Part shown: positions 6,711-31,704 of the stretch, one piece after another
How the letters are laid out: each line of letters begins with the position of its first letter
Numbering within the stretch: the stretch's first letter is position 1
Assembly: GCA_001871415.1 (NCBI GenBank)
Contig: MNWW01000028.1
Location: forward strand, 1-35,105
Reading direction: 5' to 3'
From: Candidatus Woesearchaeota archaeon CG1_02_57_44
GTDB taxonomy: Archaea; Nanobdellota; Nanobdellia; Woesearchaeales; CG1-02-57-44
Length of the DNA: 35,105 nucleotides
Translations under genes and position numbers: made by a program
Notes under the pieces: model-generated
What the model was told of the DNA's origin: nothing
What the model saw: the letters and a program-made list of their open reading frames with translations, nothing else
Databases searched by the model: none

Positions 6711-7961
6711 TCAGGAATCCGGCTGGCCCGAGGTGCGCTTGCCTTTGCCCTGCCGCAGCGCATCTTGCAGCGCGCTTCGCAACGCGTCCTGCACCGCTGG
6801 CACGGTTATCGCCTTCATGCACTGCTGCTCCTTGTCGGTTCCCGTGAACCTGCATTCCGGAACGCTCCCGCGATGCACATTGATGCAAGGCGAGTACGGG
6901 CAGCACCCTCCACGATAGACCGAGACATTCTCTTTCCCGAGCGGCGCGAAGCGTGAAGGAACATTAGGCCCGAACAATCCTACGACTTTGCATCCCTGCG
7001 CGGCCGCGATGTGCATAGGCCCGGTGTCATTGGAGAGCATAAGGTCACATTCCTTGCAGACAGCCGCGAGCTCTTCCAGGGACAATTGCCCAGCGAGATT
7101 CAGGACGCGTTCGTGGCGGGTGCTGCTCGCTGTTGCTCCCTGGTCTTTTCCGCTCGTCCCTGACATCCGCGCCACGCTCTCGCACACCGCAGCATCGCCC
7201 TTCCCTCCCACGAGAACGACACCCATCCCTCGCTCACGCGCCCACGCCACTACCTTGGCCATACGAGACATTGGCCACATACGGCTTTTTGCCGAGTCGG
7301 CCACAGCAGGAGCGACGCAGAGCAGTGGCCTGCCAACCCCCTTCAGCAGTGAGCGGGCCCTGGCGCGTGCCGCGCTTGAGACCTTGAGTTCAATCAGCTT
7401 GTCAGGATAGGGGACCTTGGATGTGGACACAAGCAACGGCTTGGCAAGGTCGATGAACGCGTGGCTTTCATGCAGGGTATCATCGAGCCGCACAGTGTCT
7501 GTATAGAGCATGCCGCGTGGCCAGAGCGAAAATCCCAGTCGTCGACGCGACAGCAGCAGCGACAGCAGCGCGCTGCCATTGCTGAAGGGTTCCGTGTCGA
7601 TAACGGCGTCATAGTGGCGCGACGGGCATCTGCCCCTGAGCGCGCGCAGCAGCCCGCCCGGGGCGCCGACATCCACCACCTCGTCGAACAGCCCGCTCAT
7701 GCGCAGCACCGCGCTGACCCTGCTGGTGGTTATCGCGTCGATGCGCGCATGGGGATGCTGCCTGCGAAGCTCCCTGACCATGGGCAGCGTCAGCACTGCT
7801 TCGCCCACAGCCCAGAGCCGCACGACCGCGATGCTGCGCACATCGGCGACAGGACGGGGTCGCGTCAATAGCTCAGGAATCGAGGCTATCTTTCCGCCGA
7901 GCACCAGCAGCGCGCCGAGGCTCTGGTCCGTCCAGCGCAGGGTTTTTCCGTTGAGGGTCAT
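6711..7961 (-). CDS. Glycosyltransferase family 9 (heptosyltransferase-like)
   Basis: The product is 416 aa. Residues about 43-75 match the GT9 N-terminal Rossmann domain (IAVVRLWAVGEAVLTLPMV, then LRRQHPHARIDAITT). The C-terminal domain has CVAPAV, GMGVVLVGGKGD and the diagnostic SNDTGPMHIAAAQGCKVVGL with FGPNVPSRFAP, the nucleotide-sugar-binding region. A Cys-rich tail (CCPYSPC, then C-x-F-TGTDKEQQC) follows, also typical of GT9 proteins. The enzyme probably adds a sugar to a surface glycan; donor and acceptor are unknown. It is the last gene after GT2 and DUF2304, 45 bp after the DUF2304 stop, with no clear promoter of its own. The family call is firm; the pathway is inferred from the AglB neighbourhood. 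Confidence 0.88.
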   Translation of the reverse strand: MTLNGKTLRWTDQSLGALLVLGGKIASIPELLTRPRPVADVRSIAVVRLWAVGEAVLTLPMVRELRRQHPHARIDAITTSRVSAVLRMSGLFDEVVDVGAPGGLLRALRGRCPSRHYDAVIDTEPFSNGSALLSLLLSRRRLGFSLWPRGMLYTDTVRLDDTLHESHAFIDLAKPLLVSTSKVPYPDKLIELKVSSAARARARSLLKGVGRPLLCVAPAVADSAKSRMWPMSRMAKVVAWARERGMGVVLVGGKGDAAVCESVARMSGTSGKDQGATASSTRHERVLNLAGQLSLEELAAVCKECDLMLSNDTGPMHIAAAQGCKVVGLFGPNVPSRFAPLGKENVSVYRGGCCPYSPCINVHRGSVPECRFTGTDKEQQCMKAITVPAVQDALRSALQDALRQGKGKRTSGQPDS

Positions 7962-8337: not shown

Positions 8338-9108
8338 TCACCTCGTGAGTTTTTGCCAGAACAACTGCCCCATGATCCTGATCCCGTTGAGCGTGCGCTG
8401 TCCCTTGCGCAGCGAGTAGTCTGTGTAGATGGCCTTGATGGGAATCTCTGTCGTGCGTAGCTTGTTCCTGCCAATCTCCTTGATGATCTCGCTGGACACT
8501 TCCATCCTGTTGGTACGGATGGAGATTTTCTGCGCGCCCGCGCGTGAGAATCCACGAAGTCCGCTTTGGGTATCGCTGCAGCGAACACCAAAGAGCAGGT
8601 ACGTTAGGATATTCAGGACGCGGTTGCCCGCTTTTCGGACAAACGGCATGCCTTCTGTCTCCGTGCCGATGAGTCTGCTGCCGATGACCGCGTCATAGCC
8701 CGAAGCGACCGTGTCAGCGACCCTTCTTGCGTCCCGTGCCAGATGCTGGCCATCAGCGTCCACCGTGACCAGGATGTCAGCGTCATTCGCGAGCGCTGCC
8801 GCAAACCCCGTTCCCAGGGCGCCGCCTAGCCCACGGTTGATGGGATGGGAATACACTGTCGCGCCAGCTTTACGTGCGACCGCCGCTGTCGCATCAGCGC
8901 TGCTGTCATTGATGACAAGGACGACGAACCCTTCTGCTTTCAGGTCTTTGATGACCTTGGCGATGGTCTGCTCCTCATTGTAGGCGGGAACGATCGCGAC
9001 GCGCTTCAGGTGTGCGATGCGCCTGTTTTTTGTGCCGCCGAGTGATTTGCTGGCGGCGCGCACCCTGCCTGTTGAAGCGCTTGGGGCCCTGCGCAGACTG
9101 CGGTTCAT
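8338..9108 (-). CDS. GT2 family glycosyltransferase (dolichyl-phosphate sugar synthase-like)
   Basis: The product is 256 aa from the ATG at 9106-9108, chosen because a TTTTTTATA box lies about 27 bp upstream; longer in-frame starts would run into the aglB 3' end. A basic N-terminal extension (about 35 residues, many Arg/Ser) precedes the GT-A fold: VAIVPAYNEEQTIAKVI, VLVINDSSADAT, HPINRGLGGALGTGF, and VTVDADGQH holding the metal-binding DxD. DTQSGLRGF and a C-terminal RTLNGIRI follow. These fit the dolichol-phosphate mannose/glucose synthase-like branch. The usual DDGS triad is NDSS here, a mild variation. It forms a tight operon with DUF2304 and GT9 and probably charges a lipid carrier for N-glycan assembly. 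Confidence 0.88.
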   Translation of the reverse strand: MNRSLRRAPSASTGRVRAASKSLGGTKNRRIAHLKRVAIVPAYNEEQTIAKVIKDLKAEGFVVLVINDSSADATAAVARKAGATVYSHPINRGLGGALGTGFAAALANDADILVTVDADGQHLARDARRVADTVASGYDAVIGSRLIGTETEGMPFVRKAGNRVLNILTYLLFGVRCSDTQSGLRGFSRAGAQKISIRTNRMEVSSEIIKEIGRNKLRTTEIPIKAIYTDYSLRKGQRTLNGIRIMGQLFWQKLTR

Positions 9109-9130
9109 GCATGCACGAGAATGGAAGTGG

Positions 9131-9140
9131 GTATAAAAAA
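9131..9140 (-). promoter_or_regulatory. Box A of the GT2-DUF2304-GT9 operon
   Basis: TTTTTTATAC on the minus strand, centred about 27 bp before the GT2 ATG at 9108 and located in the 70-bp gap after aglB. This gives the glycosyltransferase operon its own promoter and a leaderless start. Confidence 0.6.
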
Positions 9141-9178
9141 CCTGTTGTGGGCTACGCAGAGGGACTTGATGCAGTGGT

Positions 9179-12100
9179 CTATCCGACTGTTCCCGCAAGC
9201 CCCGCGCTCGCTTCAGTACTGTTGGCCGTCGTGTCCGCTGCAGAACCGCTGCTTGTGCCATTGTCCGCATTGCCATCAGCCGTGCTCTCTGTCGCATTCA
9301 TGGCCGTCTCATCCTGCGCAGGCTGATCGAGCGAATATACGATGTTCTTCTCCTTTCCTTCCCAGTCCACCTTCCAGACATAGATCTCGTTGCCGATGAT
9401 GCTGCGCTCATAGGTGAATGGCTTGAAGTGCGAGAGCCCATGGCCCTTCAGGAAGAACAATCGCGTGAAGATGCTCTTAGCTGTCTCGGGGCTGGCGAGC
9501 GTGACCATGAACTCATTGTTTCCCGTCGGAATGAGGGTGACGCCGATGCTCATGCTGCTGTTCGAGGTCTTCACCTGAACGCCTTGTTCATCCGGATACA
9601 CATAGACCTGAGGTATCACCATGCCTTGCTGCGTGCCCACCAGGGCTGTGTTGCTGGTTGTGTTGATGGCCACCGGGCCGCAGATGAGCATGTCTCCCTG
9701 CGGATTGCAGCCCTGCGCGCCGCCCTGGAATCCCGGCCAGGGCGCTATCCACTGGTTGATGGATTCCTCATTCGGCAGCGAGGTGATCTCGAAGTAGAGT
9801 CTCTCTGCGTCCACGGCATCGCTGACCAGTCCTTTGTCTATGAGTGCCTTGACGCCAGCGTCTTTCTTGAGGCCTGCGACAGCGTTGACCATGGCCGAGC
9901 GCGTGAAGTTCCAGGATCCAAAGTGGCCCCACACACCGCTCTTGCCGATCATATCTTCGCTCGTGATGAAGTAGTTCTCCGGCGGCTCGCAGTGCGTACC
10001 CGCGAGCACGACCTGCGCGTCAGCTTCGCTCAGGCCGGTGCCGAGCAGGTACTGATGCGCATCTTCCTTGTCCATGAGGATGGTCTTCTTGAGCGTATCC
10101 ACTGCCTTGAGCCCATCGCCGTAGGTCTCCTCAAGGAAATTGCCTGTCTCATCAGAATTGCAGTCAAGCATGCGCAAAATGCCCATGGCTTCATCCTCAT
10201 TGTCTGTGAGCAGCACACGTCCTATCCAGTGCGCCATGGGTGTGCTCTGGCTCGCGCCATCGAATGTGACGCCGCGCTGCGTGATGTACTTGAAGTGGTG
10301 CCCGAAGTCCCACCAGGAGTTGACGATGGCCGTTGGTTCTGATTCCATGCGTATCTTGCTGAGCGCGTTCCACCAGGCATCATTGATGATGGGTATCTCT
10401 CCGAGGGAATTCGCGCTTGCCGCTTGCAATGGTTTGATGAGCACTAGGGAAAGACCGACGATGAGCACGACCGAGACGAGTGTCTTGTTGATGGAGAACT
10501 GCTTGCTCATCCAGGACGTGCCATAGCGGTGCAGAAGCCCTGTGGCGATGCCCACGCCGATGACATAGGCAGGCACGAGCATGAGGATGAAGCGCACGCC
10601 GCTGAAGGTCGAGTAGATGATACCAAGGTACCAGACCACGAACAGGATGGCGAACTTGACATCACGCTGCCCTCTGATGTCGCGGGTGAAGAGCAGCAGG
10701 ATGACGCCAAGGATGCTCAGGTAGAACAGGAACGGTGTGCCCAGCGTGTTGATTATCTGCTGCAGGTTGCCGACTGGATTCAGCTCGGCGACGGTCGTGT
10801 AAACATTGGGCCAGATGGTGGCTTGTGTCGCGTTCTTGATGCTCAGGAACGCGAACGGTCCCAAAAACGCCTGCAGCCAGAGCTTGAAGTTGCGCATGAA
10901 CAGGCCGGTGAAGATGATGGTGCTGACAAAGACCAGGCCGAAGGTGAGAACGACGCTCTTGACGCTGGGGTCTTGGAAGAACTCCTTCAGGATATTCTTG
11001 CGCAAGGTCTTTTTTGCCCAGCCGCTTTGGTAGCACAGATACAGGAACAGGCCAAGCGCGAGCACCAGCATCCAGATGAAGAGTCCATGCGGCCAGCCGC
11101 GAAGCGCCCACCAGAGCAGTACGGCGATGCCTTCCGACACGATGAGAGCGATGCCTTGCGCGCGCAGCGATGCCCGGAATTCCGGGCGTCTCCAGATATA
11201 GTTTATCCAGGTGTAGAGCAGATAGCCAAGCACGGTGACGATGATGAAGTCGAAGACGAACCACCAGCCGCCCCAAGCAAAGGAGTACATGCCAAAGGCC
11301 AGGCCGGTGAGGATACTGTAGATGGTGCGTGTCCGTGGTGTGTTCGCTTCAAACGCTTCCATGAAAAGCCAGAGGGCAAGGACGGGAAATACGACATTGA
11401 CGATGTCATTGTCTGAGCCGAATGTCCTGCTGAGGATGAACGGGTGGATGCCGATGTAGATGGCGGCGATGGTAGCGCCGAAGTCGCCGGCGATGCGGCG
11501 TGTGAGGAAGAAGACTGCGATGATGGACAGGATGCCAAAGACCCATGGCGTGAGGAACGCTGCCTGCATGGTGGTGATGCTGCTGTGGAATGTCTTGAAG
11601 ATGCGATACAGGTACGCTTCGGCGTAGGGGTAGAGTGATGGTGACGTGCTTGAGCCGTGCGGCGCGGTCATCAGGTTGTCCCAGAGTGCGCCGTCCTTGA
11701 TGGTGTCTCCCACATGGCCATGGTCCAGGATGTTCTCTGCCTGGCGCAGCCAGAAGTAGGAGTCGATGTCTGCTAGGTATGTGTAGCCCTGGTCGTTCTT
11801 GAAGTGCTGCTTGAACTGCTGGGATACCTGGGCGACCTGCTGGTCCACCGCGTCCTTGTTCTGGCCGTAAAACTGCGTGAGCTGCTGCTCGACAATGGCG
11901 TTCTTATTCGCGTCAGGCAGGCTGGGATATTGCTGATCCACGCCGGCGCGGATCTGGGAGCGGTAGTTGTTGAACACGGCGTCGTGGGCCCAGCGGTCGG
12001 TGATGGGCAGATCGTTGGGGAAGTTCCTGAAATGGAACATGAAGGCGACCGCGAAGATGATGAGGATGATGGCCCGATACTTCTTTACCAGGTCAAACGC

Positions 12101-12547
12101 GCCGGAGACGTTGAACCCGAGATCTTCATCGTCACCCGATGTATGGGTGCGTGGGCTTGCGTCTTTTGATGCGCGGGCGCTTGCGGTCTGCTTGCCGGTC
12201 TTCTGCTTGCGGCTGAACAATTTACCGATGCCGGAGAAATCTATGGCTAGGTCATCATCGTCAGCCTTTGCGGGGGGGCGAGCGCTCACAGGCGCGGCGG
12301 ATGCTGATGAGGGGGCTGCCCCTTTTTGGGGTGGGTGCTCTGGTGCTATGTGAGCATGGTGCACCGGCGGTCGCGCAGAAGGCGACTCTTTCTTTTCAGT
12401 GCTGGAGGGGGCTGCGGTTGAACCGACAGATCCCGATGAGGAGGTGTCCGGATTCTTGCGCTCCTGCTTCTTGTTTTTCCAGAAAGCGAGCTTTCCCAGA
12501 TCGATGCTCAGATCGTCGTCGTTTGATTCGTCTTCCACAATGGCCAC
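9179..12547 (-). CDS. aglB: Oligosaccharyltransferase AglB (STT3 family)
   Basis: The product is 1122 aa and transfers lipid-linked glycan to Asn in N-x-S/T on exported proteins. It starts at GTG (12545-12547), about 29 bp after a TTTAAATAA box. Residues 1-156 are a cytoplasmic low-complexity tail with three copies of an acidic motif. The membrane domain starts at about 157; the first acidic motif is TDRWAHD (183-189) and the second DIDSYFWLR (260-268), followed by ENILDHGHVGD and SPSLYPYAEAYLYR. Many helices follow. The soluble domain has the catalytic-site motif WWDFG (745-749), a Phe variant of WWDYG, with HHFKYITQRG after it. The last 50 residues are Ser/Thr/Ala-rich with three sequons (NAT, NGT, NST). 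The call is very secure; the long tails are unusual. Confidence 0.96.
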   Translation of the reverse strand: MAIVEDESNDDDLSIDLGKLAFWKNKKQERKNPDTSSSGSVGSTAAPSSTEKKESPSARPPVHHAHIAPEHPPQKGAAPSSASAAPVSARPPAKADDDDLAIDFSGIGKLFSRKQKTGKQTASARASKDASPRTHTSGDDEDLGFNVSGAFDLVKKYRAIILIIFAVAFMFHFRNFPNDLPITDRWAHDAVFNNYRSQIRAGVDQQYPSLPDANKNAIVEQQLTQFYGQNKDAVDQQVAQVSQQFKQHFKNDQGYTYLADIDSYFWLRQAENILDHGHVGDTIKDGALWDNLMTAPHGSSTSPSLYPYAEAYLYRIFKTFHSSITTMQAAFLTPWVFGILSIIAVFFLTRRIAGDFGATIAAIYIGIHPFILSRTFGSDNDIVNVVFPVLALWLFMEAFEANTPRTRTIYSILTGLAFGMYSFAWGGWWFVFDFIIVTVLGYLLYTWINYIWRRPEFRASLRAQGIALIVSEGIAVLLWWALRGWPHGLFIWMLVLALGLFLYLCYQSGWAKKTLRKNILKEFFQDPSVKSVVLTFGLVFVSTIIFTGLFMRNFKLWLQAFLGPFAFLSIKNATQATIWPNVYTTVAELNPVGNLQQIINTLGTPFLFYLSILGVILLLFTRDIRGQRDVKFAILFVVWYLGIIYSTFSGVRFILMLVPAYVIGVGIATGLLHRYGTSWMSKQFSINKTLVSVVLIVGLSLVLIKPLQAASANSLGEIPIINDAWWNALSKIRMESEPTAIVNSWWDFGHHFKYITQRGVTFDGASQSTPMAHWIGRVLLTDNEDEAMGILRMLDCNSDETGNFLEETYGDGLKAVDTLKKTILMDKEDAHQYLLGTGLSEADAQVVLAGTHCEPPENYFITSEDMIGKSGVWGHFGSWNFTRSAMVNAVAGLKKDAGVKALIDKGLVSDAVDAERLYFEITSLPNEESINQWIAPWPGFQGGAQGCNPQGDMLICGPVAINTTSNTALVGTQQGMVIPQVYVYPDEQGVQVKTSNSSMSIGVTLIPTGNNEFMVTLASPETAKSIFTRLFFLKGHGLSHFKPFTYERSIIGNEIYVWKVDWEGKEKNIVYSLDQPAQDETAMNATESTADGNADNGTSSGSAADTTANSTEASAGLAGTVG

Positions 12548-26835: not shown

Positions 26836-29800
26836 ATGAAACCAATTACGCGATTGCTGGTACTGGTGCTTGTCATTCTTGCGGCGGTCATGTCCATCGG
26901 CTCCCTGATGCCTGCGGTGTTCGCGGCTGAGGACTTTGTAGCCTACGCGAACGGTCAGGCCATAACCAGCTGCCAGTGTAAGACCTACGCGTCAGTAATC
27001 ACCGTGCAGAACACCGGCACTGTGGCCTCAGCGTATAATCTCTACCTTGAGGGTGACGCGGCTCCTTACGCTGCTATCCGCCCGCAGACATTCATCCTTG
27101 GCCCTGACCAGCAGCAGAAGGCGACAGCGTATATCACCCCTCCGTGTACGTTCGCTGGCAACCTGCAACTGCGGACCATTGTCGCCACAAGCACCCTAGA
27201 TAAGGAAATCAACCAGGACATTGTGGTGCAGAACTGCCGTAACCTGGAGCTTTCTGTCGATCGCAGCAGTATAACCGCCTGCTCTGGGACGACCATGACC
27301 TACGGTCTGCTCATCAGCAATCCCGGTCCGTTCGAGGAGACCTATGTGCTCAACGCGACCGCGCTTAATCCAAGCTTCGCTGCGAATCCCGTGGCACTGC
27401 AGCCAGGTACCTCCACCGTCGTTCCCATGCAGGTCGCGACGCCGGAGGGTTTCACCGGAGTCGTCAAGTTCGCGGCGTCGGCGTACGCCGTCAAGTCAGG
27501 CCAGCTGCAGGCGGTCGACCTGACCGCGTATGCGAATGACTGTTATCAGTACACGGCCCTCGTCCAGCCGCAGAGCATCAAGGCGTGCGCGGATGAGTCT
27601 TCTGCCGCGCGTGTGGATATCATCAATAACGGCACGCTCGCCAATGTCTATACCGCGGTGCCATCGCTCACGTATGTGATCGGGTCTTCCGAGTATGTGC
27701 CTGCTGGCAAGCAGGCGTCGATTTCCCTGATTCTCTCTCCCAAGCGCGAGGATATAGGTAATCACACTCTCAATGTGCAGGTGCAGACCGAAAAGGGCAA
27801 ATCGCAATCACTCACCGTGCCTTTGGAAGTGCTCGATTGCTATGGCCTCAGGTTCGAGGCGCAGCCGTATGCGGCGGTCGCGTGTTGCGGCCAGCAGGAT
27901 TATGCCGGCGTGGTCAGGAACACCGGCAGCGTGTCAGAGACCGTGAAGGTGAGCGCGTACGACGACTTCGTGTCCGTGATTCCCGCGGTCTTCTCACTAG
28001 GGCCTGGAAAGGAGCAGCAGGTGATTTTCCACGCCAATCTTCCCTGCGATACGCAGCAACGCGTCATCTCAGGAGAGGCGAATCTGCTTGGGTATCGAAG
28101 CTCGCTGGTGAAGGGCATATCCTTCCCCGTGAAGGTGCTGGACGATGCTGCCTGCTTCGCGCCGACGGTAACGCCAAAGGATGTCGCTGTCGACTACGCG
28201 ACGCGCAGCTTCGATATCAATGTTGCTGCGCCAGGTATCCGCGAGTCCAATTACACCATTGCCCTGGAGCCAGGGCAATTCTGGCAGGCGCAGGTCCAGG
28301 ACAAGCGGTTGAGCGGTCAGGCCTCCGGCCAGGATCATACCGTGTCTGACGCTGCCACGGCCGCAGCAGGGTCTCAGGCAGCATCAGGTTCCTATTCCTT
28401 TTTCATCACGCCGACCAACGAGAGCGCGCAAGGCTTGTATCCAGCGATGCTGACGCTCTACGCGGGCGGAAACGCTTACCCTGCGTCGGTCAATGTGGCG
28501 CTGCGTCATGACTATGTCCATGAAGGCATGGTGGCTGCGTGGCTCGCGATAAAGCCCTATCTTCTGTGGCTCGTGCTGCTCCTGCTGCTGTTGCTTGTCT
28601 TCATCATCCTGCTCAGGCGCCGTAGCGCGGCCAGGCGAAAGCGCACGGTCCAGGCACTGACCCTTGCGGACGAGCAGGCGACCCTGGAGCTGACGCGCAA
28701 GGGGTGGATGGCAGGCGCGTCCTGGCGAAGTGTCCCGGAATCAGGCGCGTCAGCAGGCCTGACGCATCCGTACTTTGAGATAGTGCGCATTGAAGTGGTC
28801 CCGAAGAAGACATTGCGCAATGTGCGCCTGGAGATCCACAAGCTGCTTGAGCGCCCCAAGGTGCCGGCAGTGGACAAAGGCATCGCTTATTTTGATATCA
28901 AAAAGAAGAACTGCGCTGATCGCGACATTGCGTTCGCGCGGGTGACCTTTCGTGTCAGCAGTGCCATGCTCAAGGCATCAGGGCTCAAGTCGCGCGATGT
29001 CGCCCTGCTGCGGTACCGGCGCACGTGGGAGCCGCTGCACACGCGCCATGTGGTGAGCAGCGGTGGCTACGCGTATTTCGAGGCGGTGACCCCCGGTTTC
29101 AGCGTGTTCGCCATCGGCAGGCGTCAATCTAATACGCCCTTCACACGAAAGGCGGCCGCAAGTGATCTCGTGCCCGCGGCAGTAGCGCGCGGCAAGCCAG
29201 CGCAAAAAGGGTCAAAAATGTCCTCAAAGGAACAAGCGAAGCAGCGCTTCCCCTGGGGTTTCCTCATCGCGATCCTCCTCATCCTGCTCCTCGTCGCGTA
29301 CTGGCAGCCGCTGGTCGCGCGCTTCGGACCAGAGCATCCGAGTGCGGTCTTCACCGATGCCAGCACCATCATGCTCTGCGAGGCCGGCCCTGAACTGGCA
29401 GCGCTGCATTTCAATCACACCACAGCGTCGGTGTATGACGTCCGCATGAAAGGTCCCTCATATCTGAACGCGACCGCGCTTCCGGGCCAGGTCGTGCTGA
29501 CGGCGAGTGGTCCACGCGCGCTCGGAAGATCGACAGCAGGCATCACGGTCACAGCGGGGGACGAGCTGGTGGCGAAGACGACAGTTCCTGTCAAGGTCCG
29601 TTCCTGCTTTGCGGCGTCGCTTTCCTCTGTCAAGGATATGGACTGCTGTGGTCTCAAGACGTATGAGCTCAACCTGAGCAACAACGCTGTCGAACCAGGA
29701 ACCTTTTCTCTCTTCGCATCTGATGGGCTCGTGCTCGATCAGAGCGAGTACTGGCTTGCCGCAGGAGACAGTGTGCTGGTTCCTGTGACAGCAGACGTCC

Positions 29801-31704
29801 CCTGTGACGCCACGCTTGATGGTATGGTGCGCGCCACAAGGGCGGCATCGCCACTGCCGGCTATCGAGGCGAAGGTGCAGGTGCAAGGCATCGCGACTAA
29901 GGCATGTTACGCCGCGGAAATCACACAAGAACGCTCAACAGTCTCAACCAAGGGTGGCATCATCCCTTTCACTATCCGCAATGTCGGGATCAAGGAGGCG
30001 CGCTATGGGCTCTTCAGCCCTGACGCGCAGTATCCAGTGGACTTCAACGCTACCCATGTGACACTGGCGCCAGGCCAATCTGAGCGGCTGGACATCATCA
30101 TCGCGCCGTCGGAAGAGTCGACGCAGAATTTCACCATTGGCGCGCTGTTTCTGGGCAACTCCTACTTGCATCCTATGACCGTGAGTATACGTCAGAACGT
30201 CTTCAGCAAGTCTATGGACGCGGCCACAGGATTCTTCTATCCTGACCGTATGCCATGGCTCTGGGCATTGCTCATCGTCCTGTTCATCATCTGGGTGCTG
30301 CTGCTTATTCGTAATCGCAGATCATCGCAGGTGCGCCAGCACTTCTACCAGATGGGCGACGAGGCAGAAGAGGCGACAGCCAAACTGCCGACCGTGCGTA
30401 AGGTCGGTCAGGCGTATGCCTATGAGCACTGGGTCATGCGCATCCACTCTCCCACCTTCGCTATCCGCAAGATAACGCTCCTGACCAACGCCAACGCCAA
30501 GCGCGTGGAAGCGCGCTTGACACGGCTTCCGGCGACAGAAGTCAATGTCAAGGACACCTATCACGCGTATCGCCTGCGCCTTGATGGGGCAAACAAGCAG
30601 GATACCGAGCGCATCGATGTATGGTTCCGTGTGGAGAAGGCGTGGGTCAAGAAACACGGGGTTATCCTCCTGGCTCGCCCGCAGCGCACCTGGCAGCGCA
30701 TAAAGCCAAAAGTGCTGGGCAAGGACGATGGCTATGTGTACTATCAGACGCAGATTCCTTCTGCTGGAACGCTTGTCATCGCGGGCAAGTCCGCGAGCAC
30801 GCTCGCTGATGTCGCTGACGCCAAGACCGCAGCGAAAGGCGCGGCGAGAGGCACGGGGGCTGCGGCAGGCGCGACCAGCGCCAAGGCGCAGCGGGTTGAG
30901 AAGCAGACAGGCAAGAGAACCCCCAAGGCCCCCAGCCGCGGTCGTGAGGTCCTCTTCACCTTGTTCCTCCTCTTCATCGTCCTGCTCATCGCCTACGCGA
31001 TAACGCAGGGCGCGACTGATGGAGAGGGTCTCGGCGAGAACGCCACCAGTCCCATGACGTTTGCGCACAGCAGCGATGCGGCAGGTATTGCTGACGACAA
31101 CGCGACAGCAGCGACGACATCAGGTGTGACCGGCGGTCAGGACGGCGCAGTGACCGGCGCTGATTCATCCGACATGTCGGATATCACCATCTCTCCTATT
31201 ATCATACCGAAGGCCCCAGAGGCATCGGAGACCATAATGGTCCAGAATGAGACGCAAGCTGCGCAGGGTCCGAGCGCTCGTGAGCTGGCAGAGGCCGAGG
31301 TGGCAGCGATGCTCAGCTACATACGCGATAACAATCTCTCTGATTCCTTCTACTATCATGTCTGGCCTGAGGGCTATGCGTACACCATAAACCTTTCAGC
31401 GAATATCATAGACCCTGATCATGGCAGATTGAATTTCACCGTGACGCCGATGGATGATGTCGCCTCGACCGTGCGCGGCGACTTCGCGACCTTCGTGCCG
31501 CCGCCTGGTTTTGTGGGTGTGCGCACGGTGAAGGTGTTCGCCATAGGGCAGGGCAAGCAGGCGCTCACGCCGGATATAACGCTCATCGTCCGTCCCGCCA
31601 CGTGGGTTGAGGCGGCGAAGGTCAATGGTACGGCTGTGCTCGTGCTCGTCATCGTGCTCACCGGCATCATGCTCATGGTCGCGCACAGCAAGAAGCGCAG
31701 GTGA
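26836..31704 (+). CDS. Five-helix envelope protein with two PGF-pre-PGF-like domains
   Basis: The product is 1622 aa. A signal peptide (residues 1-31) leads into an ectodomain of about five Ig-like NEW3/CARDB-type repeats of about 100 residues, each opening near a Cys (CQCKTYASVITVQNTG, ITACSGTTMTYG, VACCGQQDYAGVVRNTG) and closing on another. Helices lie at about 573-594, 804-827, 1138-1160, 1370-1392 and 1598-1616. Between helices 1 and 2 (about 645-762) is a PGF-pre-PGF-like domain: VTFRVSSAML, VALLRYRRTWEPL, YFEAVTPGFSVFAIG. A diverged second copy lies between helices 3 and 4 (VWFRVEKAWV, TWQRIKPK). Arg/Lys clusters place both inside the cell. A cadherin-like domain precedes the last helix. 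It possibly links the surface layer to the cytoplasm. Confidence 0.82.
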   Translation: MKPITRLLVLVLVILAAVMSIGSLMPAVFAAEDFVAYANGQAITSCQCKTYASVITVQNTGTVASAYNLYLEGDAAPYAAIRPQTFILGPDQQQKATAYITPPCTFAGNLQLRTIVATSTLDKEINQDIVVQNCRNLELSVDRSSITACSGTTMTYGLLISNPGPFEETYVLNATALNPSFAANPVALQPGTSTVVPMQVATPEGFTGVVKFAASAYAVKSGQLQAVDLTAYANDCYQYTALVQPQSIKACADESSAARVDIINNGTLANVYTAVPSLTYVIGSSEYVPAGKQASISLILSPKREDIGNHTLNVQVQTEKGKSQSLTVPLEVLDCYGLRFEAQPYAAVACCGQQDYAGVVRNTGSVSETVKVSAYDDFVSVIPAVFSLGPGKEQQVIFHANLPCDTQQRVISGEANLLGYRSSLVKGISFPVKVLDDAACFAPTVTPKDVAVDYATRSFDINVAAPGIRESNYTIALEPGQFWQAQVQDKRLSGQASGQDHTVSDAATAAAGSQAASGSYSFFITPTNESAQGLYPAMLTLYAGGNAYPASVNVALRHDYVHEGMVAAWLAIKPYLLWLVLLLLLLLVFIILLRRRSAARRKRTVQALTLADEQATLELTRKGWMAGASWRSVPESGASAGLTHPYFEIVRIEVVPKKTLRNVRLEIHKLLERPKVPAVDKGIAYFDIKKKNCADRDIAFARVTFRVSSAMLKASGLKSRDVALLRYRRTWEPLHTRHVVSSGGYAYFEAVTPGFSVFAIGRRQSNTPFTRKAAASDLVPAAVARGKPAQKGSKMSSKEQAKQRFPWGFLIAILLILLLVAYWQPLVARFGPEHPSAVFTDASTIMLCEAGPELAALHFNHTTASVYDVRMKGPSYLNATALPGQVVLTASGPRALGRSTAGITVTAGDELVAKTTVPVKVRSCFAASLSSVKDMDCCGLKTYELNLSNNAVEPGTFSLFASDGLVLDQSEYWLAAGDSVLVPVTADVPCDATLDGMVRATRAASPLPAIEAKVQVQGIATKACYAAEITQERSTVSTKGGIIPFTIRNVGIKEARYGLFSPDAQYPVDFNATHVTLAPGQSERLDIIIAPSEESTQNFTIGALFLGNSYLHPMTVSIRQNVFSKSMDAATGFFYPDRMPWLWALLIVLFIIWVLLLIRNRRSSQVRQHFYQMGDEAEEATAKLPTVRKVGQAYAYEHWVMRIHSPTFAIRKITLLTNANAKRVEARLTRLPATEVNVKDTYHAYRLRLDGANKQDTERIDVWFRVEKAWVKKHGVILLARPQRTWQRIKPKVLGKDDGYVYYQTQIPSAGTLVIAGKSASTLADVADAKTAAKGAARGTGAAAGATSAKAQRVEKQTGKRTPKAPSRGREVLFTLFLLFIVLLIAYAITQGATDGEGLGENATSPMTFAHSSDAAGIADDNATAATTSGVTGGQDGAVTGADSSDMSDITISPIIIPKAPEASETIMVQNETQAAQGPSARELAEAEVAAMLSYIRDNNLSDSFYYHVWPEGYAYTINLSANIIDPDHGRLNFTVTPMDDVASTVRGDFATFVPPPGFVGVRTVKVFAIGQGKQALTPDITLIVRPATWVEAAKVNGTAVLVLVIVLTGIMLMVAHSKKRR

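Follow-up and report, generated by a model that had tools for sequence, protein, structure and literature searches.

We found that a 1622-residue envelope protein from an uncultured member of the Woesearchaeales carries two PGF-pre-PGF domains (TIGR04213/IPR026453), each placed between transmembrane helices on the cytoplasmic side of the membrane. PGF-pre-PGF is a common archaeal domain whose usual context is extracellular, ahead of a C-terminal anchor helix, and finding it on the cytoplasmic side throughout a conserved family contradicts the view that the domain marks surface proteins. The protein, here called the scaffold, is encoded in a contig stretch of 35,105 nucleotides that was analyzed as a whole (the window), and the gene immediately upstream encodes a surface protein, here called the partner. 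Domain identity, cytoplasmic placement, recurrence in relatives, internal duplication and pairing with the upstream partner were all computed, and the reading that we consider best, with a probability of about 0.6, is that the scaffold is an envelope anchor with an inner, non-cleaving, GAIN/ZU5-like docking domain. To our knowledge, very little is known about how the coat is linked to the cytoplasm in DPANN archaea, and the scaffold is a candidate for such a physical link.

When the whole protein was compared with NCBIfam, TIGR04213 (PGF_pre_PGF) matched two stretches of it (E = 6.8e-25). Each copy was also scored alone: copy 1 (residues 648-760) gave 63.8 bits (E = 1.8e-17) and copy 2 (residues 1206-1316) gave 32.9 bits (E = 5.6e-8), both above the curated cutoff of 28 bits. 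A reading made earlier from the sequence alone (the sequence-only reading) had proposed one clear and one diverged copy, and these scores bear it out. The PGF-S-x-FAI motif reads TPGFSVFAIG in copy 1 (TPGFS at residues 752-756) and is replaced in copy 2 by IPSAGTLVIAG, that is, PSAGTLVIAG where PGFSYFAI is expected. The two copies resemble known members in passing the curated score, in the TPGFS of copy 1 and in having the same predicted fold. They differ in that known members are extracellular and precede a C-terminal anchor, whereas the domains described here lie between helices, inside, with a net positive charge and an often degraded motif. An ordinary PGF-pre-PGF domain of the outer type is also encoded in the source genome, in a 1661-aa frame (L062, G000:C58:17093-17482). 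In the literature that we searched, PGF-pre-PGF was mentioned in passing only.

By hydropathy, the scaffold has five helices and three ectodomains behind a signal peptide (Table 1). The signal helix spans residues 7-25, confirming the signal peptide that had been proposed ahead of the first ectodomain, and the five helices lie at residues 575, 809, 1140, 1372 and 1598. Residues 307-822 could be aligned with residues from about 896 to 1387 (23% identity over 533 columns, E = 4.5e-22); thus, the module of Ig-pair, helix, PGF-pre-PGF and helix is present twice, as the sequence-only reading had held. The second ectodomain gave the strongest HYDIN/VesB-like Ig match of the entire scaffold (2.2e-9, Pfam). 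The last ectodomain of the homologues is a cadherin-like/Big_9 domain, with profile scores up to 1.0e-10 for Big_9 and 1.2e-11 for Cadherin_5, while that of the window protein reached only E = 0.19.

Table 1. Features of the scaffold gene, the partner gene and their surroundings in the window.
Feature	Position	Strand	Basis
Glycosyltransferase family 9	6711..7961	-	
Glycosyltransferase family 2	8338..9297	-	
STT3/AglB-type oligosaccharyltransferase	9179..12547	-	Pfam 1.5e-32
PKD-repeat protein, 2358 aa	18086..25162	+	13 PKD repeats
Partner gene, 434 aa	25379..26683	+	signal peptide, NEW3/FixG_C-like beta domains, C-terminal helix
Scaffold gene, 1622 aa	26836..31704	+	open reading frame
Signal peptide, residues 1-30	26836..26925	+	hydropathy peak 7-25, VFA↓AED cleavage-like site; homologues have a matching helix
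Ectodomain 1, Cys-bounded Ig-like repeats	26926..28557	+	12 Cys, 5 sequons; HYDIN/VesB-like Ig match
Helix 1, out to in	28558..28614	+	hydropathy, charge; followed by RRRSAARRKR
PGF-pre-PGF copy 1, cytoplasmic	28777..29115	+	TIGR04213 63.8 bits; AF2 pLDDT 90.3; best Foldseek matches include GAIN and FIIND
Helix 2, in to out	29260..29316	+	hydropathy, charge
Ectodomain 2, duplicated Ig-like pair	29317..30252	+	internal duplication E 4.5e-22; HYDIN/VesB-like Ig
Helix 3, out to in	30253..30309	+	hydropathy, charge
PGF-pre-PGF copy 2, diverged, cytoplasmic	30451..30783	+	TIGR04213 32.9 bits; AF2 pLDDT 89.6
Helix 4, in to out	30949..31005	+	hydropathy, charge
Ectodomain 3, C-terminal cadherin-like/Big_9-like domain	31006..31626	+	kept in homologues
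Helix 5 (out to in) and KKRR tail	31627..31701	+	hydropathy, charge

The cytoplasmic placement of both PGF-pre-PGF domains is well supported. Topology was derived from hydropathy and charge, standing in for DeepTMHMM and Phobius, and helices were assigned by eye wherever neighbouring ones merged. In the 12 proteins with an intact N-terminus, the window protein included, the helices between the signal peptide and the domain are odd in number for 13 of 13 copies, which places the domain in the cytoplasm. N-termini were missing from the homologues in genomes G047 and G119, and the G030 gene is split in the assembly by a frame change within the PGF-pre-PGF domain (L124, G030:C67). In the same 12 proteins, the positive-inside rule holds for 69 of 74 helices, with more Lys and Arg on the predicted inner side, and the pooled flanks support a cytoplasmic domain in every protein. 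For the window protein, the topology of the sequence-only reading, which had been argued from Arg/Lys clusters, puts 24 flanking Lys and Arg residues inside and 6 outside, and this argument stands. The charge of the domain itself is also shifted: mean net charge was +7.1 for the 15 inner copies and -2.6 for 74 outer ones (Mann-Whitney p = 1e-6), and the difference held (p = 8e-4) when one copy per family group and both window copies were used. Taken together, helix parity, helix flanks and domain charge uphold the claim that the domains face the cytoplasm.

A further argument for this topology had been drawn from sequons, which were said to occur in all three ectodomains and in neither loop. 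The counts agree, with 5, 5 and 6-7 sequons in the ectodomains (one at the edge of helix 5) and 0 and 0 in the loops; however, both loops hold only 8 Asn in total, so that the absence is weak evidence by itself. When the family was pooled, sequons per Asn came to 12/97 inside and 71/346 outside, which was not significant (Fisher p = 0.08), and sequon density per 100 residues was 0.30 inside vs. 1.09 outside. The distribution within the window protein is therefore as claimed, but the argument built on it weakens once relatives are added.

It is extremely unlikely that the topology is wrong and that the domains really lie outside. Every other PGF-pre-PGF domain surveyed is indeed outside, but such a placement here would require an inverted or odd helix number in 12 proteins and would conflict with the charge at the 69 helices mentioned above, and an uncleaved signal anchor in place of the signal peptide would leave the parity unchanged. 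The surveyed copies outside the scaffold family follow a signal peptide only and mostly lie 25-140 residues before one C-terminal helix; in this survey of the order, no copy outside the family was found between two convincing helices. Two candidates for a helix-domain-helix order outside the family (L088 and L178) were rejected, their upstream stretches being beta-strand-like with polar or Cys residues.

The layout is not unique to the source genome and is common to a broad Woesearchaeales protein family. With the full protein as query, 248 of 288 Woesearchaeales genomes contained a match, for the most part covering ectodomain 1 and the first helix; the homologues have a signal peptide, an Ig-like ectodomain, helix hairpins with short K/R-rich loops and a final helix. 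A scaffold with PGF-pre-PGF between its helices, the layout that was sought in relatives, occurs in at least 13 further genomes (G005, G030, G047, G064, G119, G125, G136, G138, G163, G216, G229, G275 and G279) from six other family groups (f6, f25, f31, f48, f65 and f79). A direct scan of named genomes for relatives of the window protein found none. Long K/E/R-rich stretches, probably forming a single helix or a coiled coil, were seen in the first cytoplasmic loop at four loci (L174, L173, L181 and L124).

We also analyzed the history of the domain in a tree of 89 domains, in which 11 inner copies grouped together (bootstrap 77); the window copies and those of G125 and G047 fell outside this inner clade with low support. 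A single clade of all 15 inner copies was not rejected by the AU test (p = 0.71), in which the constrained tree outscored a quick free tree. A single recruitment of the domain to the inside is therefore possible, though not proven. The inner domains of seven family groups, with identities of 20-30%, retain the core of the fold.

AlphaFold predicted the same beta-sandwich for both copies (pLDDT in Table 1), from models built largely on the same alignment. When copy 1 was compared with the PDB using Foldseek, the GAIN domains of BAI3 and BAI2 led the matches, which also included NLRP1 FIIND, CD97 GAIN and, lower, AnkG; the unrelated helicases senataxin and Sen1 were within the first eight. The top six matches of copy 2 were BAI3 GAIN, AnkB ZU5, NLRP1 FIIND, CD97 GAIN, AnkG ZU5 and again BAI3 GAIN. 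Because the E-values of the GAIN, ZU5 and FIIND matches were only 0.01-0.08, with TM-scores of 0.35-0.51, the likeness is a consistent lead only. Among viral models (BFVD), the top two matches of copy 1 (E = 3e-6 and 5e-4) bear no informative names, the first being a viral protein of 175 aa (A0A5Q2W8E7). When the 89 domains were compared with Pfam at E-values up to 10, the 25 families reported most often included neither GPS nor ZU5; the window protein matched neither of them, and the domain profile gave no relevant match to PDB sequences.

ZU5, GPS and Nup98 domains have been united, with ZU5 reported in bacterial surface proteins (PMC3482391), and in GAIN domains the last strand, a tethered agonist, comes after an HL↓T/S cleavage site (PMC11697300). 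In the AlphaFold model of copy 1, the F-S pair of TPGFS lies directly before the last strand. PGF-pre-PGF resembles the GAIN domain of adhesion GPCRs and PKD1, the leading structural match, in being a predicted beta-sandwich near a membrane helix and in having an F/L-S pair at the place of HL↓T/S; it differs in having no GAIN-A helical subdomain, mostly no catalytic His and, in the comparisons above, no sequence-profile match, and the inner copies differ further in the side of the membrane on which they lie. The ZU5/FIIND domains of ankyrins, UNC5, PIDD and NLRP1 form the second group of structural matches, but there is no sequence-level match to them and no UPA or death domain.

The residues around the F/L-S pair were then counted. 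In the 74 outer domains, the Ser was kept in 73 and preceded by F or L in 72, and the position of the catalytic His was occupied by Gly in 64 and by His in 3. Of the inner copies, 13 align a residue to this position, and 7 of these retain the Ser (p = 2e-5 against the outer domains); we infer that the PGF-S motif is kept outside and relaxed inside. A cleavage triad (HL↓T/S, or F↓S with the catalytic His) is absent from nearly all copies, and copy 2 lacks even the F-S pair. Self-cleavage is unlikely because the catalytic His is usually replaced by Gly. That the inner copies are autoproteolytic switches cutting at a GPS-like site is very improbable, even though the predicted fold matches autoproteolytic domains and the G064 copy reads K-H-L-S-YFAI, near the GAIN HL↓S triad: the His before the bulky residue is missing from nearly all copies, and many inner copies have no Ser.

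ZU5 is a cytoplasmic beta-sandwich for docking or autocleavage. We tentatively suggest that PGF-pre-PGF is an archaeal GAIN/ZU5 branch found on both membrane faces, with PGF-S replacing the GPS site and the inner form serving a conserved Woesearchaeales two-gene envelope unit to couple the glycoprotein coat to the cytoplasm. With the same reserve, the domain may stand outside by an anchor helix as GAIN does and inside between helices as ZU5 does. If true, the GAIN/ZU5-like fold would be the first structural hypothesis for PGF-pre-PGF and would connect the envelopes of archaea with a superfamily whose known members are chiefly receptors of animals and surface proteins of bacteria.

The inner domains might also be a leftover, a canonical single-anchor surface protein having been fused in with its PGF-pre-PGF remaining inside without function. 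Such an origin would fit the spacing between the domain and the next helix in the window protein, 49 and 57 residues, which equals the canonical value of about 50, and the degraded PGF-S of many inner copies. However, the fold core is kept across the seven family groups, the inner charge is shifted to suit the inside and the window protein retains two copies; we consider a functionless leftover quite unlikely.

The partner protein matched FixG_C (3.9e-9) and NPCBM_assoc (1.3e-5) in Pfam and scored 95.1 bits against NF033506, the PACE-CTERM "putative S-layer protein". It falls under the NF033506 cutoff of 110 and is shorter, but is probably a distant relative, and the Ig parts of the scaffold match NF033506 weakly as well. 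In 33 of the 51 loci that could be tested, a strong homologue of the partner immediately precedes the scaffold gene, and the partner adjoins the inner-domain protein in all 12 intact loci (the window, ten of the testable loci and G216). The two-gene unit of a 434-aa surface protein and a multi-pass scaffold is widespread in Woesearchaeales.

In the anchor model, the scaffold is one member of an old, widespread family of Woesearchaeales envelope proteins. The signal peptide would bring a glycosylated, Cys-bounded Ig-like ectodomain outside, two-helix hairpins would then cross the membrane repeatedly and fix the protein in it, and the cadherin-like domain and the last helix with its positive tail would end the chain. 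Part of the family has one PGF-pre-PGF domain in the cytoplasmic hairpin loops, and the window protein has two, by internal duplication. The ectodomains and the partner would build or hold the coat. The inner domain, a putative GAIN/ZU5-type beta-sandwich without self-cleavage, would dock proteins at the inner face, and from the model we infer that it engages a cytoplasmic partner. Carrying such a non-cleaving docking module inside, the scaffold would act as a structural anchor that joins the glycoprotein coat, probably via the surface partner, to some cytoplasmic component.

Alternatively, the scaffold could be a signal transducer, with ectodomains that detect surface-layer state and thereby change the inner PGF-pre-PGF domains, which pass the signal on. 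Large ectodomains are joined via helices to inner domains in a single chain, several homologues have long charged, helix-prone cytoplasmic stretches, and animal GAIN and ZU5 domains occur in receptors. However, comparison of the window protein with Pfam and NCBIfam turned up no kinase, HAMP or nucleotide-binding domain and no effector domain of another type; no signalling or effector domains were seen in the proteins examined, and no conserved regulator besides the surface partner in the neighbourhood. We regard a transducer as unlikely and favour the structural anchor.

The window also encodes an STT3/AglB-type oligosaccharyltransferase, on the contig that also encodes the sequon-rich envelope proteins, and beside it glycosyltransferases of families 9 and 2 that form an apparent glycosylation cluster; N-glycosylation of the ectodomains is therefore plausible. 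A large PKD-repeat protein is encoded upstream of the partner gene (Table 1), and PKD-type proteins are found near the scaffold in some relatives too.
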